DNA from: Flaviaesturariibacter aridisoli
GTDB lineage: Bacteria; Bacteroidota; Bacteroidia; Chitinophagales; Chitinophagaceae
DNA: 55,305 bases
Assembly (NCBI RefSeq): GCF_004343705.1
Contig: NZ_SKFH01000027.1
Coordinates: 1-55,305, forward strand
Reading direction: 5' to 3'
Shown here piece by piece: positions 3,786 through 21,228 of this stretch. Position numbers and translations under genes: made by a program. The notes beneath the pieces were generated by a model. The model saw only the letters and a program-made list of their open reading frames with translations. It was not told the origin of the DNA and made no database searches. How positions within the stretch are numbered: the first letter of the stretch is position 1; each line of letters begins with the position of its first letter.

Positions 3786-6700
3786 ATGCGTTACCACCCT
3801 CGCTCCGTCCTCAGCACGCTCCTGCTGCTGACCTCCGTTTTTGCCTCCGCGCAAAACACCACCGACACCCGCCTGCTCTGGCAGCCCGCCATCAGCAAGA
3901 ACGCCATTGCCTTTATCTATGCCGAAGACCTGTGGGTGGCGAACCGCGACGGCTCCTACCCCCGTAGAATTACGGTGAGCGAAGGCGCGGAATCCAACCC
4001 CGTATTCTCCCCCGATGGAACGATGATCGCCTTCACCGGCCAGTACGACGGCAACACCGACGTGTTTGTGGTGCCCGCCGCCGGCGGCGTGCCGCGCCGA
4101 CTGACCTGGCACCCCGGCGCCGACCTCGTGCGCGACTTCTCCGCCGACGGCAAGAAGATCCTCTTCGCCTCGCAGCGTACGAGCTTCACCAACCGCTACT
4201 ACCAGCTCTTTACCGTAGATATACAATCCGGCGCCGAGCAGCAGCTGCCCGTCCCCAACGCGTTCTGGGCTTCTTACAGCCCCGACGGAAGCAGCATCGC
4301 CTACACCACCATCCCCGACCGCTTCGAGCAATGGAAAGGCTACCGCGGCGGCACGGCGTCGCGCATCTGGATCTACGACACCCGCTCGCACAGCGTAACG
4401 GAGATCCCCAAGCCCGCCACCGGGAGCAACGACTCCAAACCCGTGTGGAAGGGCAGCACGGTGTACTTCCGCAGCGACCGCAACGGCGAGTTCAACCTCT
4501 ATAGCTACAACACCGCCACGAAAGCCGTCAGCCAGCTGACGAAGTTTACCGACTTCCCCGTGTCGGGGCTCGACGGCTCGGCCGACGGGATCATCTTTTC
4601 ACAAGCGGGCTATCTCCACGTATACGACGCCCCATCCGGCGCGGTGAACCGCCTGAAGATCGGCATCGCCGCCGACCTGCTCGACCAGCGCGAGCGCTAC
4701 GTGAAGGGCGAGCAATACATCCGCGGCGGCGATATCTCGCCCACCGGCACCCGCGTGGTGCTCGACTACCGCGGCGAGATCCTGACCCTGCCCGCGCAGA
4801 AGGGCGACCTCCTCAACCTGACCAACAGCCCCGGCGTGCACGAAAAAGACCCGGCCTGGTCGCCCAACGGCAAGCTCATTGCCTGGTTCAGCGACGCCTC
4901 GGGCGAATACGCCCTGCACGTGATGGCGCAGGACGGCAGCGGCACGGCGCAGGTGCTCCGCCTCAACGGCTCGGGCTTCTACGCCCACCCGCACTGGTCG
5001 CCCGACAGCCGGAAGATCGCGTTCGTGGACAACGGCCGCCGCCTCTACGTGGCCGACCTCGCCGCGGGTACGATCCAGAAGATCGCCGAAGACGAGCAAT
5101 ACACCCCGGGTGCGTTCCGCGACCTGTTTGGCAGCTGGTCGGCCGACGGGCAGCACCTCGCCTACACCACCATCACCACGACCAACTTCGAGCGGGCCTG
5201 GATCCATTCCTTCGCCGCCGGCAAGTCGAGCGCGGTGACCGACGCGCTTTCCAATGTAAGCGAGCCCACCTTCGACCCCTCGGGCAAATACCTGTACCTG
5301 CTGGCCAGCACCGACGCGGGGCCGGTGGTGAACTGGTTCGACCAGTCGAACAACGACATGGAGTCCACCAACGCGCTCTACCTCATCACCCTGCAAAAGA
5401 GCGTGCCCTCGCCGCTGGCCCGGGAGAACGAGACCGAGCCCGTCGACAGCAGCGCGAAGGCGCCCTACAAGGCCGACTCGAGCCGCAAGCGCGTGACCAT
5501 CGACTGGGACGGCATCCAGAACCGCATCGTGGCCCTGCCGCTGCCGAAGGGCCGCTACAGCAATCTATCCGTGCTGAAGGAAGGCGAGCTCTTTTACCTG
5601 TCGGCCGCGCCGCACAACGCCACGCCCACGATGCTGAATCTATACAGCCTGAAGAAGCGCAAGGAAGAACCCATCCTGCCGGCCGACAACTACCGCATTG
5701 CCGCGAAGGGCGAGAAGACCCTCTTCGTCACGAAGGGCAAGTGGGGCGTGGCACCCACGGGCCAGAAGCCGACACCCGAGTCGATGATCAACACCGCCGG
5801 CCTGCAGGTGAAGATCAACCCCAGGGAAGAATGGAAGAACATCTTCAACGAAGCCTGGCGCGTAAACCGCGATTTCTTCTACGACTCCAACATGCACGGC
5901 GTGAACTGGCCGGCCATGAAAACGAAATACGCCGCGCTGCTCCCCGACGTGGCCAGCACCAACGACCTCTACCGCGTGATGCAATGGATGTTCAGCGAGC
6001 TCTCCGTGGGGCACCACCGCTTCGATGCCTCGGGCGACCGCCGCGCCAACCCCGAGACCGTTCCGGGCGGACTGCTGGGCGCCGACTACGAGGTGGCCGG
6101 CAACCGCTACCGCATCAAAAAGATCTACGGCGGCCTCAACTGGACGCCCGAGCTGCGCTCGCCGCTGACCGAGCCCGGCGCCAACGTTAGCGTGGGCGAC
6201 TTCATCCTCAAGGTGAACGGCGCCGACGTGACCGCCGACCGCAACTTCTACAGCTACTTTGAAAATACCGCCGACAAGATCGTGACGCTCACCGTGGCCG
6301 CTTCGGCCGAGGGCGCCAACACGCGCACCGTGAAGGTGGTGCCGGTGGCCAGCGAAACGGCGCTGCGCAACCGCGACTGGGTGGAAGGCAACATGCGCAA
6401 GGTGCACGAAGCCACCAACGGGCAGGTGGCCTACGTATACGTGCCCAACACCGCGGCCCTGGGCCACGAGTATTTCAAGCGCTACTTCTACCCGCAGGCC
6501 GACAAGGCCGCCATCATCATCGACGAGCGCTTCAACGGCGGCGGGCAGCTGGCCGACTACTACATCGACCTCCTGAAGCGGCCCCTCAACTCGTACTGGC
6601 GCTACCGCTACGGCAAAGACCAGAAGGCTCCCAACGCGTCGATCCAGGGACCGAAGGTGATGCTGATCGACGAGACCGCCGGCTCGGGCGGCGACTACCT

Positions 6701-7031
6701 GCCCTACCTGTTCCGGCAGGCGAAGCTGGGCACCCTCGTGGGCAAGACCACCTGGGGCGGCCTCGTGGGCGTGCTGGGCTACCCCGAGTTCATCGACGGC
6801 GGCGTGGTAACGGCCCCCAACGTGGCCTTCTTCGACGCGAACGGCTTCGGCATCGAGAACGTGGGCACCCCGCCCGACGTGGAGGTGGAGCAATGGCCCG
6901 CCGACGTCATCGCCGGCCACGACCCGCAGCTCGAAAAGGCCATCCAGATCGCCCTGGAGGGCCTGAAGGCCAACCCGCCGCAAAAGGCGCCGGCGCCGAA
7001 GGCACCGGTGAAGGCGAGGGCGGCCTTTTAG
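3786..7031 (+). CDS. Tricorn-type S41 family peptidase, exported
   Basis: A 1081-residue protein with a signal peptide (hydrophobic core LSTLLLLTSVFASAQ, cleavage after about residue 23). The first ~650 residues form WD40/PD40-like propellers with repeated FSPDGTMIAFTG, YSPDGSSIAYT and WSPNGKLIAW blades, as in tricorn protease. A tricorn C1-like region (about 675-760) is followed by a PDZ-like segment (about 765-870, VSVGDFILKVNGADVT). The S41 core holds IIIDERFNGGG and ETAGSGGDYLPY, with the nucleophile Ser at 967 and a downstream KTTWGGLVG. It probably degrades peptides in the periplasm. The stop codon lies inside a perfect 12-bp-arm hairpin (7026-7052). Family assignment is strong; the substrate is unknown. 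Confidence 0.93.
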   Translation: MRYHPRSVLSTLLLLTSVFASAQNTTDTRLLWQPAISKNAIAFIYAEDLWVANRDGSYPRRITVSEGAESNPVFSPDGTMIAFTGQYDGNTDVFVVPAAGGVPRRLTWHPGADLVRDFSADGKKILFASQRTSFTNRYYQLFTVDIQSGAEQQLPVPNAFWASYSPDGSSIAYTTIPDRFEQWKGYRGGTASRIWIYDTRSHSVTEIPKPATGSNDSKPVWKGSTVYFRSDRNGEFNLYSYNTATKAVSQLTKFTDFPVSGLDGSADGIIFSQAGYLHVYDAPSGAVNRLKIGIAADLLDQRERYVKGEQYIRGGDISPTGTRVVLDYRGEILTLPAQKGDLLNLTNSPGVHEKDPAWSPNGKLIAWFSDASGEYALHVMAQDGSGTAQVLRLNGSGFYAHPHWSPDSRKIAFVDNGRRLYVADLAAGTIQKIAEDEQYTPGAFRDLFGSWSADGQHLAYTTITTTNFERAWIHSFAAGKSSAVTDALSNVSEPTFDPSGKYLYLLASTDAGPVVNWFDQSNNDMESTNALYLITLQKSVPSPLARENETEPVDSSAKAPYKADSSRKRVTIDWDGIQNRIVALPLPKGRYSNLSVLKEGELFYLSAAPHNATPTMLNLYSLKKRKEEPILPADNYRIAAKGEKTLFVTKGKWGVAPTGQKPTPESMINTAGLQVKINPREEWKNIFNEAWRVNRDFFYDSNMHGVNWPAMKTKYAALLPDVASTNDLYRVMQWMFSELSVGHHRFDASGDRRANPETVPGGLLGADYEVAGNRYRIKKIYGGLNWTPELRSPLTEPGANVSVGDFILKVNGADVTADRNFYSYFENTADKIVTLTVAASAEGANTRTVKVVPVASETALRNRDWVEGNMRKVHEATNGQVAYVYVPNTAALGHEYFKRYFYPQADKAAIIIDERFNGGGQLADYYIDLLKRPLNSYWRYRYGKDQKAPNASIQGPKVMLIDETAGSGGDYLPYLFRQAKLGTLVGKTTWGGLVGVLGYPEFIDGGVVTAPNVAFFDANGFGIENVGTPPDVEVEQWPADVIAGHDPQLEKAIQIALEGLKANPPQKAPAPKAPVKARAAF

Positions 7032-8596: not shown

Positions 8597-9216
8597 TTTT
8601 TATACTGGTTCACGAAGTCCGGGTCGGTCTTGCTGTATTGTTTCACCAGCTTGTCGAGGGTGAGCTTTAGAATGGCGTTTGCCTGGGCGTCGAGCTCCTC
8701 CACGCGGTCGGAGGCGTCGCTGCGGTGCACGATCACCTTGCGGGGTGCGGGGGCGCCTTTTTCGTAAGCAGTGATGGCGGCATCGGCGTCGTCGAGCATC
8801 GCTTCGGTTACCGCGTAATCGGCCAGGTGGGCGAGCTCGGCGCGTACGCCCCGCAGCAGGCGGCGACCCGTAAAGAGGAAGTCCTGGTCTTTGAGGCGCT
8901 GCAGGTCGCGCTCCGAATACTTCATTTCACCGGCGAGCTCGGGCCGGCCGTTGTCGTTGGCAAAGGAGAAGGCGGCGCCGGCCAGGGTGGCCACGTCGGC
9001 AGCCACGGCTGCCTTTTGCAGCTTTTTGGCCTCGGTGACGCCGCCCGACTGGGCTTTTTCCTCCTCGGCGGCCAGCTTGAGCTCGGCGACGGTTCGCTGG
9101 AAGCGCTCCGAGCCCGACTGGAAGGCCGGGATGCGGGCAATGAGCGCGCGGTTGGCGTCGAAAAGCAGGATCATGCCGTCAAACATGTTGAGGCGGGCGA
9201 TGTTGTTCTTTTTCAT
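8365..9216 (-). CDS. Helical protein of unknown function, frameshifted into 8327-8596
   Basis: The convincing part is residues 1-207 (9216 to about 8597): MKKNNIARLNMFDGMILLFD, then an alpha-helical body with ELKLAAEEEKAQ, FSFANDNGRPELAG, LLRGVRAELAH and LDKLVKQYSKTDPDF. Beyond NQYKK the frame continues only as Ser/Pro/Ala/Thr-rich shadow (residues 208-283). The plausible continuation is the Ig-like domain in the -1 frame. I infer one original gene of about 296 residues, helical domain plus Ig-like domain. Function is not recognised. No signal peptide is seen. The 30 nt upstream reads into the spacer with the TGACG array. Confidence 0.6.
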   Translation of the reverse strand: MKKNNIARLNMFDGMILLFDANRALIARIPAFQSGSERFQRTVAELKLAAEEEKAQSGGVTEAKKLQKAAVAADVATLAGAAFSFANDNGRPELAGEMKYSERDLQRLKDQDFLFTGRRLLRGVRAELAHLADYAVTEAMLDDADAAITAYEKGAPAPRKVIVHRSDASDRVEELDAQANAILKLTLDKLVKQYSKTDPDFVNQYKKCASSSTPPLPAPHSPSTCLAPTRNPSPPRRCASKAPASRASPTPTASASSKTSSPARKRSPSPTAIIHRRPWKTYS

Positions 9217-9329
9217 GGTGATCGTTTTACGTGTTTATGAATGAAGAAAACTTCCCTCTTTTTCAGGCGTCCCTGCCGGCTTGGACCAACACCCGGGCCG
9301 GTAGGCTCGCCGCCACCGGCACTGCCCGT

Positions 9330-9640
9330 TGACGCCCCTTCGCTGCCGCTTGACGGACCTTCTCCCCTCGCCTGACGTACCCGTCCGGGCCGGTTGACAC
9401 AGGGCTCACTGCTGCTTGACGGACCTGCCCTTGCCGCGTGACGCAACCCACAGCGTCGATTGACGGACCTTCCCCCCCGCCTGACGGGCGGCCCGCGGTG
9501 CCTGACGCAGTTGCCCCGGCGCTTGACGGACCCCGGTGCACCCGTTGACGGACCTTCCCCGGCCCTTGACGCCTCTTCCCAAACGCCTGACGCACTTGCC
9601 CAGGGGCCTGACGCTCCATCCGACGGTCCTGACGCACGGT
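9330..9640 (+). repeat. Tandem array of 15 units (21-22 bp) beginning TGACG
   Basis: TGACG (once TGACA) starts units at 9330, 9351, 9373, 9395, 9417, 9439, 9461, 9482, 9503, 9524, 9546, 9567, 9588, 9609 and 9630. Spacing is always 21 or 22 bp. The best-kept unit is TGACGGACCTTCCCC with a C/T-T or CC before it; the second half is variable and GC-rich. The mix of 21 and 22 bp breaks any reading frame, so it is not a repeat protein. The spacing is about two turns of B-DNA, so the conserved cores face one side of the helix. It sits at the left edge of the AT-rich island. Confidence 0.85.
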
Positions 9641-10000
9641 AAACCGCTCGTTCCGGCTTTGTACTGACTAATTAAACCCTTGAGAATGAACTTCGAAGGC
9701 GCGCGGGCCGGGTTACCCTGCGGCTCCGCGCGCCCTGTTGTACGGAAACCGAAGCTAGCTTCCCCCTTTGTGGGTTCCATGAGGATTTACCCCGTTTTTT
9801 GGGGGAAAATCATCAGGAATTTTTGGTGAGATCCTCAGGAATTTCTGGTGAAAACACCGGGAGGGTGCGTAGAAATACGCATAAACACCATAACGAATTA
9901 GCTAGCATAATTCAACTAGTATTAAAACATACGGGTATACAATGTGTGTTTTTTATTGTATTTTTCGAAATCACACGATTCACGATTGAACCACCAACTA
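9641..10000. other. Gene-free spacer; composition changes from GC-rich to AT-rich
   Basis: No gene is supported. GC content drops sharply after about 9780. Two near-identical 17-bp direct repeats (9813-9829 and 9835-9851, TCAGGAATTTYTGGTGA) lie 22 bp apart. The last part (about 9930-9966) is T-rich with TATTTTTCG and probably holds the promoter of the radical SAM gene. Confidence 0.55.
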
Positions 10001-10855
10001 ATGACGCAAATCGGGCTGTTTTCCGAGAATTCAGATGAACGACCTTTAAAACTCGGACACTCTTCGATCCATTACAAGGAAGTAGTATCTATCCTAAACC
10101 GCACAACTGGCTTTATGGATAGCTATGACTATACTTTAAATCCATATTCTGGATGTGCCTTTGGATGCTCCTATTGTTATGCCGCATTTTTCGCCCGTGA
10201 TAACGAACAAAAAGAAAATTGGGGGTATTGGGTAAACGTTAAGGAAAATGCGCTCGCTCTTATCAGAAAAATACGTTCAAAGCCTATTACCGGCAAGACG
10301 ATCTATATGAGCAGTGTGACAGACCCCTATCAACCAATAGAGAAAAAGCTCGAGTTGACGCGTGGAATACTCAAAGAACTATTGGAATTTCATCAGCCAA
10401 GAATTGTCATCCAAACTCGAAGTCCTCTTGTAACTCGAGACATTGATTTACTGAGTCGCCTTGACAATATTCAGGTCAATATGACAGTTACAACGGATAG
10501 TGAAACGGTTCGAAAGACATTTGAACCTCATTGTCCGAGTAATAAAATGCGCTTGCAAGCGATTCGCGAGGTTCATGATGCGGGGATAGCATCCTGCATT
10601 ACAATGACTCCTTTATTGCCAGTCGAAGACCCCCACTCGTTTGCTCAGACCCTTCTTGCCACTGGAATCAAGAAGTTCATTGTCCAGCCCTTTCATGCTG
10701 ACCGTGGAAAATTCACTGCTGGCACGCGAGAAGAAGCAAAGAAGTTGATCCAAGAGATGGGATGGGGCCAGGATCGATATAAACAAGTTGAAGCCATTTT
10801 TAAAGAATACATCCCCGATATCGGAATTGGCAAAGAGGGATTCAAACCAATCTGA
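10001..10855 (+). CDS. Radical SAM protein, SPL/Elp3-like fold (island gene 1)
   Basis: 284 residues starting MTQIGLFSENSDERPLKLGH. The [4Fe-4S]-binding motif is CAFGCSYCY (Cys52, Cys56, Cys59). It is followed by YMSSVTDPYQPIEKKLELTR, VIQTRSPLVTRDIDLL and VNMTVTTDSETVRKTFEP, the pattern of the spore-photoproduct-lyase-like radical SAM group. That group is known for DNA repair or base chemistry, but most members are uncharacterised. Its stop (10853-10855) is 1 nt from the next ATG (10857), so the two genes are translationally coupled. Base composition is clearly AT-richer than the flanking chromosome. An in-frame ATG at 9944 is rejected because the first 19 codons look like T-rich leader. Confidence 0.88.
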   Translation: MTQIGLFSENSDERPLKLGHSSIHYKEVVSILNRTTGFMDSYDYTLNPYSGCAFGCSYCYAAFFARDNEQKENWGYWVNVKENALALIRKIRSKPITGKTIYMSSVTDPYQPIEKKLELTRGILKELLEFHQPRIVIQTRSPLVTRDIDLLSRLDNIQVNMTVTTDSETVRKTFEPHCPSNKMRLQAIREVHDAGIASCITMTPLLPVEDPHSFAQTLLATGIKKFIVQPFHADRGKFTAGTREEAKKLIQEMGWGQDRYKQVEAIFKEYIPDIGIGKEGFKPI

Positions 10856-10856
10856 C

Positions 10857-13334
10857 ATGCAGAAACAAACCTTTACCAACTGGCTGCTTCAGCAGCAACC
10901 CACTCTCGAAAAAGTAATTCACAATGCCGCATTGGCATTTTACCAGAAACATAAGAATACCGATAATTTTCGTTACGACCTTCAAAAGGCACAACAGGAG
11001 GCCTATCACCTGACTGAAGGGAAAGACCTGTGCTATGATCGTTATACAACGCCGCTTACGTACTCACTTTGGTACCAGGCAAGGAGAATAAACGTTTTCC
11101 TTACTCAGTTTGCAGACAAGGTTATGGAAGCCTGTGATGCACAGACGCCTATCGAAATATTTGACCTTGGAGCTGGAACCGGCTGCGTGCAAATTTGCTT
11201 CGGTCTTGGATTTATCGCGTTTATGCGGAATACCAATAAAAGACCGATGCTTCGAATAATAAACGTAGACTCAAGTCCATTTATGCTTGACTATCTGCGC
11301 TCTTACTTGTGGCCGGAAATGATCAGACATTACCCGGAACTGCAAAACTTTCCAGTTGAGTATCATGTTTACTCGTGGAGTAACAGACAGGAAGTAGGGG
11401 TTTCGAACCCTTGGATCTGCGCCAGCTATCTGTTCGACTCAACTGACAACAAAGAGTACTTGGAAAGCAATTTTAACGAGCTCATAGCCACTTTTGAGCC
11501 ATCCAAAGTCTTACTCCTCACCTCAGCGCAAGAGAATAAGCGGCGATTGATGCTTAGCTTATCTGGAAACCTTCAAAAAAATAATTATAAGCTTAATAAC
11601 ACGAAAACAAACGGCGACCTGTTCCAAGGTACACTTTCATCACTGACGGCTTTCCGGGACCAACTGAGAACCGAATACGGGCTAAGGGCCTCAACCTACC
11701 CTGTAAGTTGGCGAGACCACTCCTTCGAAGCTATTGCATTGGAAAAAGTGCAATCAGGAATAATGTTCAACTTGAGGGACGTACCTGACACGTTTGACAT
11801 ATTTAATCCACCTCTGCGGATCCGTAGAAACGTTGAACTAAATGAGCTACAGGAAAAGGCAGCTCGCTTTGAAACAAATCCTTCGGTAATCGTTGGCCCG
11901 GCAGGCTGTGGCAAAAGCGTAGTCATCACAGAAAAAATCATTAACGTTTTCGAACACTTTCAGTGGCAGAAACCTCTTTCGATTCTTGTAACCACGTTCA
12001 ATAAGTCACTTATCAAGCAACTGAGAGCTTGGCTCATTGACATGTTAGGCGCAAAAGGCAAGTCTTATACAATTCATGAGTATCGCGACCCATCTGATGG
12101 AACTGGAATCATCAAGATAAAAGGTGATAAAGAATGCGAAATCAAGCTCGTACATTTTGAAATGTTGCCTAAGCTTGTCGGCCGCATTGTTATGCGCCCG
12201 TTCGACGAATCACTGCATTTAAACAAATTGTCCCAAATCATCGCTGAAGTTCGGGATGAACTTGACTTAAATCCTAAAGCCTACACCAAAGTAATGGAAC
12301 CCGCTTTCCTTATGGAGGAGTACCATCGTGTTATTTTCGGTCTTCAATGCAAATTGAGTCTTGGAGAAGAACACTACCAGAACCTGGAGAGGGTCGGCCG
12401 CGGCAATAACCCGAAGCTTGATAGCGGGATGGCCCGAAAAGCAGTTTGGACGGCTTTACACAAATATGCACTTTGGATGCATCGAACTGAAAGGGCAGGA
12501 CATTCGTTTATTGCGCGCAGGCAACTTTTCTACAACAAGTTGAAACAGGGCCAAGCTCCCGAAATGTTCGATTACATTTTCGTGGATGAATTTCAAGATT
12601 GCACGCCTGCAGATTTCGAGATAATGTCGATGCTAGTAAGAGAGGCGAACAACCTGCATATTGCCGGCGATTTAGCACAAGCAGTTCATATCGGGAAGGC
12701 TGGAAGTATCCCAAGAGGAGACGATGAAATGAACCGCCGAACTTTTCACCGATTGAAAGGATCTTATCGCTTGCCTTTCCGTGTATGTGAGGCGCTCCAG
12801 CCTCTTTCGTCCTATGTTTCTGGAAACCGGGAGGAACGCAATGGAACCGAAGCAATCACTCCTTACAAAGGCGCCCCTCCCGGCGCAAGACCGATCATTG
12901 TATTTGCAAATGACACAGAAGCTCTTTCTAAAAAGATCATCTCAATCAGAGAGCGATATCGGTGCTTTGACGTTGATCTAATAACCATTCTTGAAAGGGA
13001 TAACAACATTTGCAATAAGATCCGCCCCAATGGGATACTTGTAGAGACTTCTACCATTTTGAAATTGAAAGGGCTCGAGAAGAATCTGGTTGTTTGGTCG
13101 CTTCAGGCTCCCGTCGAATTCGAAAAAGAGATTTTCGAATTCGCTTATACGATCACTACCCGAACAAATTGTCTTCTTATTATTGCAGGAACTCCGGAAA
13201 TTATCCCGGCTTATAGGCCGGTGCTCAACTATCTAAATGAGGAACGTCTAATTTATTGGGATATTGAAAGTGAACGCTCTTTTCTAGAAGAAAAAAAGCG
13301 GGCCATAGTGATTGAGCAGGAAGAAGTGCCATGA
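10857..13334 (+). CDS. Fusion of SAM-methyltransferase-like domain and UvrD-type SF1 helicase (island gene 2)
   Basis: 825 residues. The N-terminal ~300 residues carry a Rossmann methyltransferase motif I, DLGAGTGC (103-110). An acidic motif II follows (INVDSSPFMLDYL), then a motif-IV-like ASYLFDST. From about 330 an SF1A helicase begins: Q-motif-like NELQEKAARF, Walker A GPAGCGKS (about 347-354), DEFQD at 577-581, motif III AGDLAQ (604-608 GDLAQ), KGSYRLPFRV, motif V LKLKGLEKN and motif VI TITTRTNCLLI (Arg769). All helicase motifs appear intact. Methyl acceptor and nucleic acid are unknown. Coupling to the radical SAM gene and neighbouring nuclease genes suggest a role in DNA modification, repair or phage defence; this is inference. 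The first residues are MQKQTFTNWLLQQ. Confidence 0.88.
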   Translation: MQKQTFTNWLLQQQPTLEKVIHNAALAFYQKHKNTDNFRYDLQKAQQEAYHLTEGKDLCYDRYTTPLTYSLWYQARRINVFLTQFADKVMEACDAQTPIEIFDLGAGTGCVQICFGLGFIAFMRNTNKRPMLRIINVDSSPFMLDYLRSYLWPEMIRHYPELQNFPVEYHVYSWSNRQEVGVSNPWICASYLFDSTDNKEYLESNFNELIATFEPSKVLLLTSAQENKRRLMLSLSGNLQKNNYKLNNTKTNGDLFQGTLSSLTAFRDQLRTEYGLRASTYPVSWRDHSFEAIALEKVQSGIMFNLRDVPDTFDIFNPPLRIRRNVELNELQEKAARFETNPSVIVGPAGCGKSVVITEKIINVFEHFQWQKPLSILVTTFNKSLIKQLRAWLIDMLGAKGKSYTIHEYRDPSDGTGIIKIKGDKECEIKLVHFEMLPKLVGRIVMRPFDESLHLNKLSQIIAEVRDELDLNPKAYTKVMEPAFLMEEYHRVIFGLQCKLSLGEEHYQNLERVGRGNNPKLDSGMARKAVWTALHKYALWMHRTERAGHSFIARRQLFYNKLKQGQAPEMFDYIFVDEFQDCTPADFEIMSMLVREANNLHIAGDLAQAVHIGKAGSIPRGDDEMNRRTFHRLKGSYRLPFRVCEALQPLSSYVSGNREERNGTEAITPYKGAPPGARPIIVFANDTEALSKKIISIRERYRCFDVDLITILERDNNICNKIRPNGILVETSTILKLKGLEKNLVVWSLQAPVEFEKEIFEFAYTITTRTNCLLIIAGTPEIIPAYRPVLNYLNEERLIYWDIESERSFLEEKKRAIVIEQEEVP

Positions 13335-13513: not shown

Positions 13514-14437
13514 TTATAATTCATCAAAAAAGTCCTGGTCGATATCTTTTAGCTCATAGCGCTTCTTCACCTGTACGCCAATATTGAATTGAATGGCGAA
13601 GTCAGCCAGCTTAGGACCGTCAATCAGGATGATCTTGTTCTGCGGGTTCATCGTAGCGGTGCGGAGCGCATCGTCGGTAAAACGCGAGGTGGTGATGAAC
13701 ACGCCTTTGTTGGTACCGCGCAGGCTGAGCGAACCGATAAAGTCGCGGATCTCTTTTGACTGCACTTTGTTATCATTCCATTTCTTGGCTTGTACGTATA
13801 TCCGATCGATGCCGAGTTTGTCCTGGTAGATGATACCGTCGATGCCGAAGTCGCCGGATTGACCCACGACTTCGATCGCGTTTTCCTCCATCATGCCATA
13901 ACCCATACCCTGCAGCAGGAGCAGAACGAATTTCTCAAACTGCGCGGGCGTTTTCTGCTTCAACGTTTCCAACAGGTCGGCCGCGATGGATGCGTGCACG
14001 CGGGCAAGACTTTCGCCGATCAGTTCCTCCGGGGTTTCGCTTACCGCCGGCTTTTCCTCGGTTTCGGGTGTGGGCCTCGGCCTTCCCAAAGGAACCGGTC
14101 CATTCTTTATAAGCGTCGAACTTCTCGAGGTAGGCCAGGTTGATGTAGTCGATGTCTTGCTTCAGGATCGCCAAACCCGCCTCCGTGATCTGGTACACCC
14201 CGCGCTTAACGGCTTGAAGCAACCCGGCCTTTTTCAGGTAGGTTACCGCCCACGTGACCCGGTTTTTGAACAGCGGCTGCTGCCCGCTCGGCACCATAAT
14301 GGCCAGATGTGGGTCGGAAAGCTGGAAGTGCTTTCCGAGTTGGGCGATGAGCTCCTGCGCCGGGTGGGGGCTCCGTCGCGGAGGGCGGCGAGCGCAGGGT
14401 ACATGATTTTCTGGAAGTCGGGGATTTGTTCTTTCAT
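13514..14437 (-). pseudogene. mrr: Mrr-type restriction endonuclease, two frameshifts
   Basis: Three frames join into one Mrr protein of about 308 residues. Frame 1 (14437 to about 14370) reads MKEQIPDFQKIMYPALAALR and starts the Mrr N-terminal winged helix. Frame 2 (about 14365 to 14088) continues LFKNRVTWAVTYLKKAGLLQ and LEKFDAYKEWTG. Frame 3 (about 14085 to 13514) holds the catalytic domain, with EFEKF-like PAQFEKFVLLLLQGMGY, GQSGDFGIDGIIYQ and YVQAKKW (Asp and Gln-Ala-Lys of the PD-(D/E)XK Mrr_cat fold). The first shift fits one C lost in a C-run (plus-strand G-run 14366-14370). The second fits one extra base near 14085-14087. Mrr cleaves DNA carrying foreign methylation. Either a decayed gene or two consensus errors. 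Confidence 0.75.
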
Positions 14438-14483: not shown

Positions 14484-15752
14484 TTACTTTTCGACAAGCT
14501 CAGTAGTTGAAATCAATTCAGGCAAATCAGCGAGGATCTCACGGAAATATCCCTCCATTTTCACAGCAAGTGTCCCGTCATTAATGGCGCCCCAGATAGC
14601 CATGTTATTTTCAAACCAAATATTCAAGTATTCATCACCCCTTTTTGAATCCGAAAAAAACATCAAATAATACCAACCGTCAACATGGGTATGCTTTCCG
14701 AACTTGAGTCCAAAATGATTGGAGATGACTTCTTTTTGACTCTGATTAAAAATGTCCTTTCCTGCAAACACCCCAATGCTGAAATCGGTTTTCCACTTTT
14801 CGAAACCGAGGCAGAGCATCAGCGGAGAGCCAGGTATGAAAAACTCCAGTTCCGTTCCATGCTCACGCGTTCCGAAATCCTCGTCAATAGAGTCCGCGGA
14901 ATAAGTTAACCCAAGCCTGTCCGCCACCTCTTTCATTTGGGTAACGAACTTAGCCAGGAGCCGATGCTCCACAGCCTTCACAACAGGCATTTCCCGTATG
15001 GAAAAGAAACTGGCCAGATGCTCATTCGAAGCCAGTACGATGTCTGCAATTTGATTTGCCATAAAATTATCGGTTGTTTGATCTGTGATCTTTTTAACGG
15101 TAGAGATATATTGATTCACTGTTTCACGCAGCCTGCTATTTCCGGATATCTTCCCCCGGCATTGCTCTAACCATTCGAGGACATCAGCTTCGTAGGATAA
15201 CCTTCGGTGCCGTGAATCCAGCTTGAAGTCGACCAATTGCTCCTTCGTGATTTGGTTGTGGGTAGCTATCTGGGATGGAGGGCGACCGTCTTTTGTAAGG
15301 TAGATCAGATACGAATCACGGTAGTAGTTCTTGTAGCGGATCAATTGGTGCTTCTGGTCGCCGGCATTTATCTTGTTTTCAATGAGGAATACCGGCTGAC
15401 CCGGGATCTTTATTACTATATCGATGTAGCCGCCGTTCAGATATTCGTTGTCGATTGGCCCAATGAATTCCTCTGTATACACTTTCGTCCCCGAAAGACT
15501 GCACTGGCTTAACTCCGGAATGTCGAGCAACTCCAAAAACTGCCGCAGGAAAAGTTCTTTTTGCTGGTGCGCCCCGGAAGGATCCAGCAATTCCGCGATA
15601 AAACGTGAATGCAACCTCGGCTCGTTGTACTCGAGGGACAGAATGGAGAATATGTTGAAACGTTCCCCCGATGCATCCAACGCTTTGTTTCGTTGCTCCT
15701 GCAATTCGAATGTTTGATGAAGCAGACTGCTGACAATAAGGTCTTGGCCCAT
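14484..15752 (-). CDS. PD-(D/E)XK nuclease superfamily protein (PDDEXK_4-like)
   Basis: 422 residues starting MGQDLIVSSLLHQTFELQEQ. The region FNIFSILSLEYNEPRLHSRF and LLDPSGAHQQKELFL is the conserved N-terminal block of this family. The nuclease core is GGYIDIVIKI and VFLIENKINAGDQ, with Asp111, Glu125 and Lys127 as the D-ExK triad, followed by QLIRY. The C-terminal half (about 230-422) is a less conserved domain. The family is abundant in phage-defence islands; its target is not known. It lies 46 nt upstream of the Mrr gene in the same direction and may be co-transcribed with it. Confidence 0.85.
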   Translation of the reverse strand: MGQDLIVSSLLHQTFELQEQRNKALDASGERFNIFSILSLEYNEPRLHSRFIAELLDPSGAHQQKELFLRQFLELLDIPELSQCSLSGTKVYTEEFIGPIDNEYLNGGYIDIVIKIPGQPVFLIENKINAGDQKHQLIRYKNYYRDSYLIYLTKDGRPPSQIATHNQITKEQLVDFKLDSRHRRLSYEADVLEWLEQCRGKISGNSRLRETVNQYISTVKKITDQTTDNFMANQIADIVLASNEHLASFFSIREMPVVKAVEHRLLAKFVTQMKEVADRLGLTYSADSIDEDFGTREHGTELEFFIPGSPLMLCLGFEKWKTDFSIGVFAGKDIFNQSQKEVISNHFGLKFGKHTHVDGWYYLMFFSDSKRGDEYLNIWFENNMAIWGAINDGTLAVKMEGYFREILADLPELISTTELVEK

Positions 15753-16114: not shown

Positions 16115-17191
16115 TTATACTGTTGTTTTCGTGTTTGCCAATTCATGCTGTTCCACAGTCTTCAGTAGGCGGGTAGCATGATCATATAAGGCGATGACTT
16201 CCTCTAACTCGACTCTCTCCTCTTTTTCGGTGTCAAAGAACGTAACCTGCTTCTTCTTACCATTGAAGTGAAGGCGGCAGATTGGCCGACGGTTGTTGTC
16301 GTCTAGCAGGATGGCGCAATAGGACTGGGCATCCCGCATGCAAACCCGAGTTGCTTTTACTTTGGCAGAAACAATCGCCCGCACGATGTGGAAGCCTTCC
16401 ATTTCTTCAGCAGTTGTTACCACTTTGGACTCTTCGACAGGCGCTATATCTTCTTTCTCCTGTTGGTTTACAATTTCCTCCTCGGCTGAAAGGGCGGTTT
16501 TCAGACGATCATTGATCGTGTCGTTGATATACTGGCTGAAAGACTTTTTCACAAGCCCCTTAAATTGATCAAGCACTTTAGACGTAACCATTGAAGGGTA
16601 GACACTTTTTGCGAACAAGCGGGTGAAGTCGTCTGAGGGTTCGCCCAGTTCCTTATGGATAAGGTTACGCAGCTCAGACAAATACTTCAGCTCACTGGCC
16701 GTATTGATGATGCTTTCAATATTAAAATTGGACTTGGAAAACTCTTTAAGCTTTTCGATCTGAACATCCTTCATATCGTCTATACGGAATTCAAAGTAGG
16801 GCTTCTCGTCCATCTTATTTGTTTCCACCAGGTCCGTATAGAAGCGGTAATTGATTCCATTGGTCAGGATACCAAACTTGGCTTTGGTCGTATGGAAGTA
16901 GCGAAAGAGCTGGCTGTTATGGGGGTTGAGGTCGGCAGACCAGTGCTTGCATTCAATGAGCATGATCGGGTGGCCATCTTTGATGATGGCGTAATCCACC
17001 TTTTCTCCCTTCTTGATTCCGATGTCGGCAATGAATTCTGGAACTACTTCAAGTGGGTTGAATACATCATATCCCATAGCCTGAATGAAAGGCATTATAA
17101 AAGCGTTCTTAGTTGCTTCTTCCGTATTAATTTGGTCTTTGAGTTTAGCGACGCGGTCTGAAATGACCTTGACGTGGTCTTTGAAATCCAT
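16115..17191 (-). CDS. HsdR N-terminal-type nuclease domain protein
   Basis: 358 residues starting MDFKDHVKVISDRVAKLKDQ. The N-terminal half is an HSDR_N-type endonuclease: EATKNAFIMPFIQAMGYDVF, then VPEFIADIG, KVDYAIIKDG and MLIECKHW, with Asp66, Glu80 and Lys82 as catalytic triad. A helical middle follows. The last ~90 residues (about 270-358) contain RPICRLHFNGKKKQVTFF, a small beta domain common at the end of such stand-alone proteins. No helicase or methylase subunit is adjacent, so this is not a complete type I system. The start is supported by a perfect -7 box 21 nt upstream; an ATG 33 nt earlier falls between box and gene. Confidence 0.88.
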   Translation of the reverse strand: MDFKDHVKVISDRVAKLKDQINTEEATKNAFIMPFIQAMGYDVFNPLEVVPEFIADIGIKKGEKVDYAIIKDGHPIMLIECKHWSADLNPHNSQLFRYFHTTKAKFGILTNGINYRFYTDLVETNKMDEKPYFEFRIDDMKDVQIEKLKEFSKSNFNIESIINTASELKYLSELRNLIHKELGEPSDDFTRLFAKSVYPSMVTSKVLDQFKGLVKKSFSQYINDTINDRLKTALSAEEEIVNQQEKEDIAPVEESKVVTTAEEMEGFHIVRAIVSAKVKATRVCMRDAQSYCAILLDDNNRRPICRLHFNGKKKQVTFFDTEKEERVELEEVIALYDHATRLLKTVEQHELANTKTTV

Positions 17192-17212
17192 AATAAGCAG
17201 TTTAGGTTTTAC

Positions 17213-17220
17213 CAAATCTA
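17213..17220 (-). promoter_or_regulatory. -7 box TAGATTTG of the HsdR-N gene
   Basis: On the minus strand it reads TAGATTTG, a perfect TAnnTTTG, 21 nt before the ATG at 17191. Confidence 0.6.
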
Positions 17221-17337
17221 GCAAAAAAGGCTGATCTACTAGGCTACTACTAACTGCGACTTGTATAGAGACTCGACAGGCGGACCAACATATTACCCTA
17301 TCTCCTTAAAAAAGCACAATGGGCTGGTTTTGGCGAT

Positions 17338-17476
17338 CTAGGAAACGGAAATCCCTGGGAGCCAGCGAAAAATGCCCGTGAAGAACCAGTTGTTCCAGAA
17401 CCAGGTGCGATCGCGGCCGGAGCGGTTGGAGAAGCTGTTGAACCTATCCCAGGGCAGGGGTGTTGTCCTTTCCGTT
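17338..17476 (-). pseudogene. Remnant of an M1 peptidase gene
   Basis: On the minus strand it reads PWDRFNSFSN, RSGRD and WFWNNWFFT before a stop at 17340-17338. This closely matches residues in the intact M1-type peptidase nearby (PWDMFNSFSN and GRDLGWFWNNWFFTS). At the DNA level 17379-17460 matches 18699-18780 with only scattered differences, including 27 identical bases at the start. Everything 5' and 3' of this piece is gone. It lies just outside the AT-rich nuclease genes, at the right border of the island. The flanks (17225-17337 and 17477-17648) hold no other gene. Confidence 0.7.
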
Positions 17477-17648: not shown

Positions 17649-17945
17649 ATGAACATTTATGTTTCCAACCTGAGCTTCAATGTGCAGGATGAAGATCTCA
17701 AAGCCTTTTTTACGCCTTATGGTGACGTGTCCTCCGCCAAGATTATCAACGACCGCGAATCCGGCCGCTCCCGTGGCTTCGGCTTCGTAGAAATGCCGGA
17801 CAACGAGGCTGCCCGCAAAGCGATCGCCGAGCTGAACGACGGCGTCGTTGACGGCCGCACCATCCGCGTGACGGAAGCCAAGCCGAAAGAAGACCGCCCC
17901 GCCCGCAGCTTCAGCGGCGGTGGTTACAACAACAGCCGTTATTAA
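17649..17945 (+). CDS. RNA-recognition-motif (RRM) RNA-binding protein
   Basis: 98 residues. RNP2 is IYVSNL (3-8) and RNP1 is RGFGFVEM (42-49), both complete, so single-stranded RNA binding is expected. After the RRM comes a short basic and Gly/Ser/Asn tail (KPKEDRPARSFSGGGYNNSRY). Such small RRM proteins are common in Bacteroidota and cyanobacteria and are often cold- or stress-induced. The start is the ATG that places RNP2 at residue 3. The leader is long and pyrimidine-rich, and a strong terminator follows 18 nt after the stop, so it is probably expressed alone. Confidence 0.95.
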   Translation: MNIYVSNLSFNVQDEDLKAFFTPYGDVSSAKIINDRESGRSRGFGFVEMPDNEAARKAIAELNDGVVDGRTIRVTEAKPKEDRPARSFSGGGYNNSRY

Positions 17946-18143: not shown

Positions 18144-20291
18144 CTAAAAGCCCGCCGGCCCCTTCTTAAACACAAAACTCCCGCCCCCCTGCTTCATCGT
18201 CAGCTCTCCTTTCCCCGGGTCGAACTCAAACTTCAACCCCTGGGCAGCCGACACAAACGTATTCCCACCTTCATAAGCCAGCTCCAGCGGGTCCTGGCCT
18301 TCGCCCTGGGCTTTCAGCGTCGTGCCCGTGCGGGTGATGGTCAGCTTGACGGGGATCTGGGCGGAGGAATAGGTACCGACCAATTGATCGAGCTGGGCGG
18401 CGGACAGGGCTTTCTTGCCGGCGTCGCCCCAGCTGTTGTTAGCAGGGTCGGCGTCTACGTACAGGCCGTTGTCGATCTTCACACCTGTGATCTTTTTCGT
18501 GCCGGGTAGCTGCACCGTGGCCAGCTGGCCGTTCTTCGACCACACGTTGGCCGTGCAATGCACCGTGGCGTTGCTGCCGTCGGCATAGGTCACCAGCACG
18601 TCGAAGGGGATGAAGAAGCCGCCGATGTTCTTTACGGTCAGCGTGCTGCCGGTCTTGCCGGGGGTCAGCTTGTCCACGGCGACGTCCATGTAGCTGGAGG
18701 TGAAGAACCAGTTGTTCCAGAACCAGCCCAGGTCGCGGCCGGAAAGGTTGGAGAAGGAGTTGAACATATCCCAGGGCAGGGGGTGCTTGCCGTTCCAGCG
18801 CTGCATGAAGCCCTGGAGGCTTTTGCGGAAGCTGTCGTCGCCGAGGAGGTCTTTGAGGGCCAGGTAGGCCAGGGCGGGCTTGCCGTATTCGTTGATGCCG
18901 AGGGCGGGGCTGCCCAGGAGGTTCACCGGCGTAATGATGGGCACCTGGGTTTCGTCGGTGGGGGCCGTCGCCCAATTGTTCACGCGGAACAACTTGAAGA
19001 ATTCCCCCGCCTGGCCGGCACCCAGGTTGTTGATGTTGGCTAGGTATTCAAAGGCGGTGGTCCAGCCTTCGTCCATAAAGCCGTAGCGGTGCTCGTTGAT
19101 GCCCATGTAAAAGGGGAAGTAGCTGTGGCCCACCTCGTGCTCGGCCACGAAGCGCTGGAACACGGAGTCGTCCTGCGGCGAGTCGTTGGCCATCATCGGG
19201 TATTCCATGTCGGCCACGCCCTGGATGATGGTACTCTTCGGGAAGGGATAGGCCACGCCCGGCCACACGTTGCTGAAGTAGTCGAGCGCGTGGCGGATGT
19301 AGCGCACCTGGTTGTGAAAGTTCTTCGCCGTGTCGATATAGGCGGACTGGCAGGAGGCGCGGCGGCCGGTGGCCTTGTCCACCACGATCGAGGCGGCGTC
19401 CCACACGTAGTGGTCGGAGATGCAGAAGGCGGCGTCGGGCACGTGGGTAGCGGCGAAGCGCCAGGTGTTCGTAGCCCCCTGGGTGGTGATGCCGCCGGTG
19501 CGGATATCGGCCTGGGTTACTATGTTGATGACGTTGTCGGAGGTGAGGCTGCGGTTGTATTTCTCCAGGTAGGCGGGTTGCAGCACCTGCGCGGCGTTCT
19601 GCAGCATCCCGGTGCCCCACACCATATAGTTGGCGGGCACGGTCACGGCCACCTGGTAGTCGTTGAAGTCGTTGTAGAACTCCTGCGCCTCCACGAAGTC
19701 CATGCGGTCCCATCCGTGGGTGTCGTCGTACACGGCGATGCGCGGGTAGAAGTAGGCAAGGAAGAAGGAGGTGGAATCGAGGCGTCCCTCGCGGCCGCTC
19801 TGCTGGCTTACGTCGTAGTGCCAGTTGAAGGTGACGGTGACGCTGTCGCCGGGGGCGAGCTTCTTCGTCAGCGGCACGTCCATGAAGGTGCGCACGGTGT
19901 TGGCGCGCACCTTTTTCTCCACGCCGTTCTCGGTATAGCGGTCGATGAAGATGCCGTCGGTGAGGTAGTCGCGGCCGGTGCCGCCCTGGCGCGAGGCGCC
20001 GGGTTGGTGGATGTTCTGAATGAGCTTGATGGTCAGGCGGTTTAGCGTGCCGGGGCTGTTGTTGGTATACACGATCGTTTCGCTGCCGGTGATGGTCTTT
20101 GCGGGCGGGGTCACGCGTACGTCGATGCTGTAGCGGCCTTTGTTCTGCCAGTACTTCGGTCCGGGGGCGCCGTCGGCGCTGCGGGTGCCGGCGGCGTAGG
20201 CGGCCTGGATGTTCTTGGGCATAAAGAGCGGCCCCTGTGCGGCGGCGGCGGTGCTGAGGAGCGCTGCGAGGGCGGCGAGAAAGACTTTCAT
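18144..20291 (-). CDS. M1 family zinc metallopeptidase, exported
   Basis: 715 residues with a signal peptide (MKVFLAALAALLSTAAAAQ). An N-terminal beta domain (about 40-270) precedes the catalytic domain. The zinc site is HEVGH (His385, Glu386, His389), with the third ligand Glu408 in GFMDEGW exactly 19 residues after the second His. The C-terminal part includes LPWDMFNSFSN, GRDLGWFWNNWFF and a final beta domain with DPGKGELTMKQGG. It is likely a periplasmic or surface aminopeptidase. An upstream in-frame ATG at 20324 is rejected because it would bury the signal peptide. A piece of a related gene survives at 17338-17476. Confidence 0.92.
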   Translation of the reverse strand: MKVFLAALAALLSTAAAAQGPLFMPKNIQAAYAAGTRSADGAPGPKYWQNKGRYSIDVRVTPPAKTITGSETIVYTNNSPGTLNRLTIKLIQNIHQPGASRQGGTGRDYLTDGIFIDRYTENGVEKKVRANTVRTFMDVPLTKKLAPGDSVTVTFNWHYDVSQQSGREGRLDSTSFFLAYFYPRIAVYDDTHGWDRMDFVEAQEFYNDFNDYQVAVTVPANYMVWGTGMLQNAAQVLQPAYLEKYNRSLTSDNVINIVTQADIRTGGITTQGATNTWRFAATHVPDAAFCISDHYVWDAASIVVDKATGRRASCQSAYIDTAKNFHNQVRYIRHALDYFSNVWPGVAYPFPKSTIIQGVADMEYPMMANDSPQDDSVFQRFVAEHEVGHSYFPFYMGINEHRYGFMDEGWTTAFEYLANINNLGAGQAGEFFKLFRVNNWATAPTDETQVPIITPVNLLGSPALGINEYGKPALAYLALKDLLGDDSFRKSLQGFMQRWNGKHPLPWDMFNSFSNLSGRDLGWFWNNWFFTSSYMDVAVDKLTPGKTGSTLTVKNIGGFFIPFDVLVTYADGSNATVHCTANVWSKNGQLATVQLPGTKKITGVKIDNGLYVDADPANNSWGDAGKKALSAAQLDQLVGTYSSAQIPVKLTITRTGTTLKAQGEGQDPLELAYEGGNTFVSAAQGLKFEFDPGKGELTMKQGGGSFVFKKGPAGF

Positions 20292-21228
20292 AATGAAGCG
20301 GTGGTTGCGAATTGATACGCGCAAACGAGTCCCTAAGTTACCGGTTGCGGAAGCGTAACCGAAAAAATGTGGCGCAGCGGTCAGGTTTTGTGGGCGGGCG
20401 GTGGAGGGGATAGGGTGCTGGTAGCTTGTTCGTTTTTAACGCAGAGGGCGGGGAGCGATTCACGGAGGGCACGAAGAGGCAGGTTCTGTACCAACAGACT
20501 ATAGGAAGCGTATCACAGGGTGGCCGGTCGTTCTTATTCGAGCGTGCGAGAGACGCCCTGCGGGCTGAGGAGTACAGCTTTGGCGGAGGCGACGGGCGTA
20601 GCCCGTCATTGCGAGTGAAACGTCCCGAGGCCTCGGGACAAACTCCATAACCTAAAGGCTTTTCCCGCCTTGCGAAGACTTCAATATGCGCGGGCATAGT
20701 TTGCGTAACGGAGGGGTAACCCGCCTGGCTGACTCAAGTGGGACGGGCTTCGCGGAGTTTACCCTGCAGAAGGCGGGGCTCGCAATGACCTTCGGTCGCG
20801 CCAGCGGCGTAGAGGTCGCGGTGAGGTCCCGGCGGCAAGCGCCGGGATGACGGCATTGGGTGTCGGACACAGGGCCCCATACAGATGCAGAGTGATGAAA
20901 GACATTTGGGAATGGGACCCCGAGGGGCATTTGTGGCAAACGAGCCAGGCGTAGGGAGCTGCAGGGAAAGGTTGGCGGGGCCCCATCCGCCTGCGGCCAC
21001 TCACGTGGGAAAGGATCCTATGGGGTTTACGGGATGACGGTGCGCGCACCGTCATCCCGTTCGCGTGCGAACGGGACCTCGTCCCGCAAACGCAAGCTGC
21101 CTGTGATCGGGACCTCGCCTGCGAATGGCCCCGGGGCAACCCCATTGCGCCGGCGCTCGACGAATACCATCCCCAATGACCCGGCCATCGGGAGTGTCGT
21201 CGAAGTAATAAAAAAGGCCAGGCAGCTC
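20292..21228. other. About 0.9 kb without a convincing gene; repeat- and palindrome-rich
   Basis: No frame shows a family motif or sensible start. It contains CATTGCGAG/CTCGCAATG pieces of the dispersed intergenic repeat (around 20608 and 20778), a GGCGGCAAGCGCC hairpin near 20830 and a chain of overlapping palindromes at 21029-21090. It looks like accumulated intergenic repeat sequence. Confidence 0.6.
21029..21060. repeat. 32-bp perfect palindrome
   Basis: ACGGGATGACGGTGCG is followed directly by its exact reverse complement. Its right end is shared with a second palindrome (21056-21075, arms CCCGTTCGC/GCGAACGGG), so the two hairpins compete. A third small stem, GGGAC-CTC-GTCCC, follows. 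Confidence 0.8.

Follow-up and report, generated by a model that had tools for sequence, protein, structure and literature searches.

A mobile gene pair of a radical SAM protein and a methyltransferase-like helicase fusion in Bacteroidota: a candidate anti-phage module

What is the function of a radical S-adenosylmethionine (SAM) gene that stops one nucleotide before a gene joining a methyltransferase-like domain to a superfamily 1A (SF1A) helicase? The question is raised by a stretch of 55,305 nucleotides from Flaviaesturariibacter aridisoli (contig NZ_SKFH01000027.1, positions 1 to 55,305; the window, hereafter), in which an earlier note had picked out the two genes as a candidate defense or DNA-modification system. 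Here, we argue that the pair is a real, mobile and self-contained two-gene unit, and we lean toward the view that it is an anti-phage or anti-invader module that acts on nucleic acid without a nuclease of its own. The coordinates first reported for the two genes were confirmed: the radical SAM open reading frame (ORF) runs from ATG to TGA (10001-10855), a single base (10856) follows, and the ATG of the 825-residue fusion lies at 10857. The parts of the unit are as follows.

10001-10855, plus strand: radical SAM gene, 284 amino acids, spore photoproduct lyase (SPL)/PA0069 type (Pfam Radical_SAM, NCBIfam, Foldseek)
10154-10177, plus strand: CX3CX2C cluster motif, C52-C56-C59, invariant in 20 aligned proteins
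10532-10534, plus strand: extra invariant Cys178 in FEPxCPSN, in 20 of 20 aligned paired proteins
10857-13334, plus strand: fusion gene, 825 amino acids, methyltransferase-like domain plus SF1A helicase (Pfam, AlphaFold2 model)
10857-11816, plus strand: N-domain, residues ~1-320 (AlphaFold2 model, conservation)
11163-11183, plus strand: motif I DLGAGTG, residues 103-109 (conservation)
11817-13331, plus strand: SF1A helicase part, residues ~321-825 (Pfam UvrD-helicase, Foldseek)
11895-11918, plus strand: Walker A GPAGCGKS, residues 347-354, K353 in 20 of 20
12582-12605, plus strand: Walker B VDEFQDCT, residues 576-583, D577 and E578 in 20 of 20
13146-13166, plus strand: motif VI YTITTRT, R769 in 20 of 20

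Do the two genes belong together? A pattern scan of one genome per species (84,980 genomes), with an alignment of four fusions as the query, gave 120 relatives, and the best 80 of the 120 correspond to 79 distinct loci. Fifty-seven of these (L036-L092) match the helicase part alone and were set aside, leaving a family of 22 loci (L014-L035). The adjacency count omits L030, in which the contig starts inside the fusion, and L035, in which the match covers only residues ~434-654. In all 20 evaluable loci, a radical SAM gene lies directly upstream of the fusion on the same strand, and the gap between the genes is -4 to +27 nt in the 19 loci where both are unbroken. The remaining locus, L034 from Niabella ginsengisoli, was counted as adjacent and left out of the alignments, the gap measurements, and the neighbor and selection tests; both pair genes (9129-12372) appear frameshifted there, reflecting either decay of the whole unit or an assembly error. 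The fusion is also found on one of 72,556 plasmids, pRUNSL02 of Runella slithyformis, which is typed as conjugative; there, the two genes of the pair overlap by 4 nt. The earlier note had staked the idea of a system on homologs of the two genes being regular neighbors, and so they are, at every evaluable genome locus and on the plasmid.

The unit is rare and widely scattered. Of 395 genomes sampled from the phylum, three have the fusion, the source genome among them, and a profile of the N-domain finds the same three genomes, each time inside the open frame of the fusion (two family loci, L028 and L032, lie on the same contigs as G171 and G219 and are not independent of this count). Carriers belong to the Chitinophagaceae, Flavobacteriaceae, Spirosomataceae, Cyclobacteriaceae, Hymenobacteraceae, Lewinellaceae, Haliscomenobacteraceae and Balneolaceae, along with one metagenome-assembled genome (MAG) of the Rhodothermota. 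No fusion relatives were found in 50,697 phage records, nor in IMG/VR with two peptide-pattern scans; relatives of the radical SAM protein occur in IMG/VR at 29 loci, where parts of the protein are matched at 23-74%. One of these (42%; positions 5938-6867 of viral contig L093) stands just after what looks by eye like a SNF2-type helicase gene.

Across 21 pairs, the pairwise distances of one protein correlate with those of the other (r=0.75, a value reached by 0 of 5000 permutations, with host kinship not removed). Purifying selection acts strongly on both genes. The ratio of nonsynonymous to synonymous substitution rates (dN/dS) is 0.037 for each gene between the window and L015, a near-duplicate of the window locus, and lies between 0.024 and 0.072 in seven of the 12 close comparisons, all rough figures with dS over 1 and near saturation; the other five gave no value, their synonymous sites being saturated.

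The relationship is less strict when the radical SAM gene is taken as the starting point. Eight of the 395 genomes have a close copy of it (best E value <= 1e-40); three of the eight have the fusion and five, all from one genus, do not. Four of these five unpaired copies are 56-57% identical and the fifth (G270) is broken. The fusion therefore needs the radical SAM gene more than the radical SAM gene needs the fusion. In a phylogenetic tree, four unpaired copies and two phage copies lie apart from the 21 paired proteins with moderate support (85/91, with long-branch warnings), and the split of the pair's radical SAM proteins from four PA0069-like paralogs is supported at 100/100, again with a long-branch warning. 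One unpaired copy (L137, 3722-8183) lies just after genes that by eye resemble cas1 and cas2 and an array of 23 clustered regularly interspaced short palindromic repeats (CRISPR).

What do the proteins look like? In the AlphaFold2 model (predicted local distance difference test score, pLDDT, 82.3), the fusion's N-domain has three N-terminal helices followed by a seven-strand Rossmann domain with its strands in class I methyltransferase order. Invariant in the 20 aligned proteins are DxCYDR, RRxN, DLGAG[TA]G, D138, SYxFD and W285. Within motif I, residues D103, L104, G105, A106, G107 and G109 are present in 20 of 20, and residue 108 is T or A; the acid after strand 2 is likewise invariant, and SYxFD is located at strand 4. 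Strand order, motif I glycines and the acid after strand 2, taken from the secondary structure of the model and from conservation, are thus those of a class I enzyme. Sequence support for calling the N-domain a methyltransferase is real but weak. A phmmer search reached a solved methyltransferase at E=0.0017, and 12 of the 20 members match Methyltransf_31 weakly (E<=0.5, best 0.0027); for the fusion of the window, the sole match is to Methyltransf_16 (E=0.13). Searches with methyltransferase families gave a best E of 0.0015, with single members, and the window protein reached at best 12.4 bits against a cut-off of 21. When the N-domain profile was compared with the PDB, methyltransferases appeared at E 0.36-0.6, below unrelated deacetylases at E 0.11-0.14. 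A weak match to Rsm22 (E=0.058) was seen for one N-domain of the 20, and in a search for Rsm22 three of 61 genomes passed the cut-off, not enough for profiles to be compared. A relation to TcmP was considered and rejected (hhalign probability 6, E 0.006, 62 columns around motif I).

The second part of the fusion is an SF1A helicase. It scores 65.9 bits against Pfam UvrD-helicase (cut-off 23), and the first 50 Foldseek matches of the whole fusion are helicases or complexes containing one, with UvrD, Rep and PcrA at the top and RNA helicases such as Upf1 lower in the list. In addition to the Walker boxes and motif VI, the protein has Q332, TTFNK, GDLAQ, GSYRLP and TILKLKGLEK, and the key residues are invariant in all 20 aligned proteins, including that of the window; with the motif names assigned as we take them to apply, motifs Q, I, Ia, II, III, IV, V and VI of an SF1A helicase are all present. 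The earlier description of a complete UvrD-type helicase holds for the motifs and less well for the architecture: the 2B subdomain looks reduced, considering that the helicase part has ~505 residues and that ~93 residues separate motifs IV and V, presumably fewer than in UvrD. Its best matches among the PADLOC defense models are RTasHel (48.7 bits) and GajB (40.8 bits).

The radical SAM protein has the CX3CX2C motif and the fold of its superfamily, and scores 68.1 bits against Pfam Radical_SAM (cut-off 29.5). Its best NCBIfam match is rSAM_PA0069 (133 bits, cut-off 360), with radical SAM mobile pair B (109 bits against 410) and Rv2578c (100 bits against 430) behind. Foldseek on the AlphaFold2 model (pLDDT 72) places SPL first (4fhg and 4fhc, E ~1e-5, template-modeling score ~0.49), which points to an SPL-type radical SAM fold, and viperin structures follow at ranks 40 and 50. 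The best PDB match by sequence is RlmN, weak at E=0.034. Membership of the SPL family itself was rejected (TIGR04070 32.5 bits against 400, Pfam SPL 16 against 27), as was a viperin identity (NF038283 11.2 bits against 180; a weak PADLOC match to pVip, E=0.043). An SxVTDPYQP segment is invariant in the 20 aligned proteins, and Cys178, which occurs as well in those unpaired copies that were read, is perhaps a mark of the subfamily. The earlier note knew of no standard family for such a fusion, and no specific model captures either protein.

Where does the pair reside? At 18 loci with flanking sequence (L018 has next to none), 108 ORFs lie no more than 4 kb from the pair; for the control, 130 ORFs were taken from 18 arbitrarily chosen regions in other genomes of the Bacteroidota, with L161 and L162 left out. 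At E<=1e-10, the neighbors matched 276 PADLOC families and the control ORFs 15. The models are redundant, one ATPase matching 98 of them at E<=1e-5, and a count per locus is therefore fairer than a tally of families. Forty neighbor proteins were scanned singly, likely candidates first (three of them lie more than 4 kb away), and 13 of the 18 loci have a singly scanned protein within 4 kb that matches PADLOC at E<=1e-10, namely L014, L015, L019, L020, L021, L022, L024, L026, L027, L028, L029, L031 and L033. Repeated residence with known defense genes, which the earlier note had only proposed to count, is thus observed.

Several of these neighborhoods are highly suggestive. In L020, the pair lies inside a bacteriophage exclusion (BREX) cluster with the order BrxC-PglX-[GmrSD-like, GIY-YIG, pair, helix-turn-helix]-PglZ-BrxL, the GIY-YIG and helix-turn-helix genes being named by eye. 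In L026 the pair stands between a JukA-like gene, directly upstream at less than 10 nt, and DruF/DruE-like genes, and L033 likewise has a JukA-like gene directly upstream at less than 10 nt. The pair comes after type I restriction genes in L021, and after a defense-type reverse transcriptase, with one gene between, in L022. In L031, a cyclase of the type found in cyclic oligonucleotide-based anti-phage signaling systems (CBASS) is 4.0 kb away. Restriction-type genes are found near the pair in the window, L019, L020, L021 and L027. No third gene family is common to most loci in an all-against-all comparison of the 108 neighbors and three window genes. L014 (6205-16492) and L028 (2665-9085) share an NsnB/AriA-like ATPase, a 940-970-residue protein (which in L014 matches mad2/type I methyltransferase) and a 309-316-residue protein, in differing order; together with the pair, these genes are perhaps one larger system.

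How might such a module work? We infer methyl transfer, radical chemistry and the substrate of the pair, with the choice of nucleic acid following from fold and family. The SF1A helicase would translocate along the nucleic acid of an invader, probably the single strands of DNA exposed in replication intermediates, with the methyltransferase-like domain in tow. The separate SPL-type enzyme would be recruited to the opened strand and would make or complete a radical-based modification of a base or sugar, while the methyltransferase-like domain would methylate or prime the same site; the resulting adduct would stall phage replication or transcription. A delivery scheme of this type is economical, because the unit has no nuclease, a translocating motor and two potential SAM-using parts. 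The exact order of these steps is a tentative proposal, and equally tentative is the broader idea of a nuclease-free "chemical restriction", in which the helicase-borne domain and an SPL-type enzyme run in the direction opposite to repair would install a replication-blocking modification.

A number of observations weigh against a role in defense or against the proposed chemistry. No curated or specific methyltransferase family was matched with confidence by the N-domain, and no phage test of the pair was found. With five of the eight genomes having the radical SAM gene and no fusion, the radical SAM protein can evidently work with other partners or with none, so that the pairing is less constant from this side. 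PADLOC matches were absent from the proteins scanned in L016 (three), L017 (two), L023 (two), L025 (one) and L032 (two), and the neighbors in L017 and L025 look by eye like housekeeping genes. Several of the matches are to generic ATPases (L014, L028), and that in L031, to the CBASS-type cyclase, lies 4.0 kb from the pair. Some control ORFs match defense models too, and the figure of 13 of 18 is a count over the pair loci alone. Moreover, residence near defense genes does not prove function, because defense genes cluster. Finally, the low dN/dS would fit a repair enzyme too.

Could the pair then be a mobile DNA-repair module? The SPL-like enzyme would reverse a lesion exposed by the helicase, with the methyltransferase-like domain in a SAM-binding or regulatory role. 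Apart from the very low dN/dS, the model gains from the top Foldseek match, SPL being a DNA-acting enzyme. In PMC8565304, moreover, SplB (COG1533) is a predicted member of the SOS regulon in Bacteroidetes. An SOS signature upstream of the pair is not evident: the LexA-type motif CTAA-N5-TTAG appears in 1 of 21 cases with one mismatch (3.3 expected; 1 of 20 control genes has an exact copy) and GGA-N5-TCC in 0 of 21, though Bacteroidetes LexA motifs are nearly absent from control genes as well, so that the scan speaks neither for nor against SOS control. Against a repair module, the pair is rare, patchy, present on a plasmid and often beside defense genes, and we consider this explanation unlikely.

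A second alternative is that the DNA of the host, or of the plasmid, is modified by the pair and thereby spared by neighboring or foreign restriction enzymes. The SAM-dependent parts, the presence on a conjugative plasmid and the restriction-type genes near the pair in the five loci listed above would all suit such self-marking. Against it, no nuclease family is common to most loci, and the window and L015, at the same chromosomal site, keep the pair and an Mrr-like gene and differ in their other cargo. Furthermore, the N-domain lacks an NPPY-type amino-methyltransferase motif and has SYLFD at what we take to be that place. Self-marking therefore seems to us quite improbable.

Perhaps the pair is directed at RNA instead, modifying transfer or ribosomal RNA as an abortive response or for resistance. 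The RlmN match and the single Rsm22-like N-domain hint in this direction, but both matches to RNA enzymes are weak and the helicase is nearest the DNA helicases UvrD, Rep and PcrA, even though Upf1-like RNA helicases appear lower in the list; the chance that RNA is the target appears slim. Least plausible is a viperin-like scheme in which the N-domain is a dead SAM or nucleotide sensor, the helicase a trigger and the radical SAM enzyme the source of a small antiviral nucleotide: viperin structures at ranks 40 and 50 and the weak pVip match speak for it, and the invariant motif I and acid after strand 2, together with a fold that ranks SPL above viperin, speak against it.

How does the pair, read as a defense module, compare with known systems? 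The nearest layout is that of TcmP (TIGR04474) and DUF5131, in which a methyltransferase-like gene lies beside a radical-SAM-like gene with a Cys motif. Ten TcmP loci were fetched and nine examined (L195 was left out); a DUF5131-type gene, recognized by eye, adjoins TcmP in seven of the nine, and in Bacteroidota loci L186-L192 the TcmP genes are directly beside DUF5131-type genes. The radical SAM profile of the pair aligns to DUF5131 (probability 94.6, E 7e-8) over 66 columns that include the Cys motif and SSVTDPYQP. The relation is a distant one only, and identity with DUF5131 was rejected (15.8 bits against a cut-off of 28.9); likewise, the methyltransferase-like partner has no NCBIfam match to TcmP at E<=1. 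The gene order is reversed, the radical SAM gene coming first in the pair, and the TcmP proteins examined are too short to contain the helicase that the fusion adds. The radical SAM protein also matches the PADLOC candidates PDC-M41B (2.8e-4) and PDC-M30B (0.0025) weakly, both of which appear to be of DUF5131 type.

Other comparisons are more remote. The PA0069, Rv2578c and mobile pair B families are the best NCBIfam relatives of the radical SAM protein, which differs from them by its invariant FEPxCPSN and scores far below their cut-offs; SPL is alike in fold, and the protein falls far below the SPL family cut-offs too. GajB of Gabija and the reverse transcriptase-associated helicases are likewise defense-associated SF1 helicases, and we know of none with a methyltransferase-like domain or a radical SAM partner. 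BREX and DISARM (defense island system associated with restriction-modification) combine an ATPase or helicase with a methyltransferase, yet to our knowledge have no component in common with the pair, even though the genes around the pair in L020 are a BREX cluster.

Known systems work by marking DNA (with methyl groups, sulfur or deazaguanine), by cutting it or by poisoning the cell, and viperins are radical SAM enzymes that act on free nucleotides; if the pair does work by chemical restriction, it would be the first defense system that we know of with radical chemistry aimed directly at polymeric nucleic acid. The pair, which is spread across Bacteroidota and lies within or next to loci of BREX, Druantia-like, Juk-like and restriction systems, is a defined two-gene cassette with which radical chemistry on DNA or RNA can be tested as a form of immunity, and it may open a route to the function of related radical SAM families such as PA0069. 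Its composition matched no known system in our tests. A described family with a known housekeeping role had been named by the earlier note as fatal to its idea; no described family or housekeeping role turned up in the libraries and open-access literature searched. No description of the pair was found in that literature, including passages of PMC10853773, PMC7641849, PMC8565304, PMC12988326, PMC10250203, PMC12839542 and PMC12926258, and subscription papers, preprints or supplementary tables may hold one. The terms "radical" and "UvrD" are absent from the main text of a BREX survey (PMC12839542), and PMC10250203 mentions a radical SAM gene at the flank of a Pseudomonas defense hotspot.

In the window, the pair lies at the left end of a low-GC island of ~9.9-18.0 kb. 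As the earlier note had observed, the two genes are AT-richer than the surrounding chromosome: GC content is 43-51% in the eight 1-kb segments at 10-18 kb and 53-68% in the remaining 47. The rest of the island holds the following genes, which give the context of the unit and lie outside it.

13514-14297, minus strand: Mrr-like type IV restriction gene, frame broken (Pfam, PADLOC)
14484-15752, minus strand: PDDEXK_4 nuclease, PADLOC candidate PDC-S26 (Pfam, PADLOC)
16115-17224, minus strand: HSDR_N-type protein, without a PADLOC match (Pfam, PADLOC)
17652-17945, plus strand: small protein with an RNA recognition motif, marking the island's right edge (Pfam)

The three nuclease-type genes noticed earlier do exist, the Mrr-like one in broken form, but they are not conserved partners. 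As members of the unit they were rejected: they lie on the opposite strand, vary among loci and, where L015 shares the window's site, have in part been exchanged for others. The L015 contig comes from a MAG titled Gammaproteobacteria and matches the chromosomal flanks of the window on both sides at 85-87%; the MAG is probably mis-binned, given these matches. Its cargo includes a SoFic gene, ahead of the same chromosomal gene as in the window. The Mrr-like gene, split over two frames in the window, is open in L015 (260 residues, 96% identical in the catalytic part), and the broken frame represents either a pseudogene or a sequencing error.

The edges of the island were also inspected. No tRNA or Rfam elements were found at the island, and no clean empty site was found, the flanking genes being on separate contigs in G403, the closest same-genus genome as judged by the two pair proteins. 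At the left edge (9304-9617) there are ~300 bp of degenerate repeats that start with TGACG, at spacings of 21, 42, 43 and 131, and the matching position in L015 is occupied by a low-complexity ORF of similar kind. At the right edge, an 83-bp direct repeat, 88% identical, occurs at 17378-17460 and 18700-18782. The copy in the island is a displaced fragment of the neighboring chromosomal gene (18144-20324), which by eye resembles an M1-type peptidase, and it looks as though it had been left behind by the exchange that delivered the cargo.

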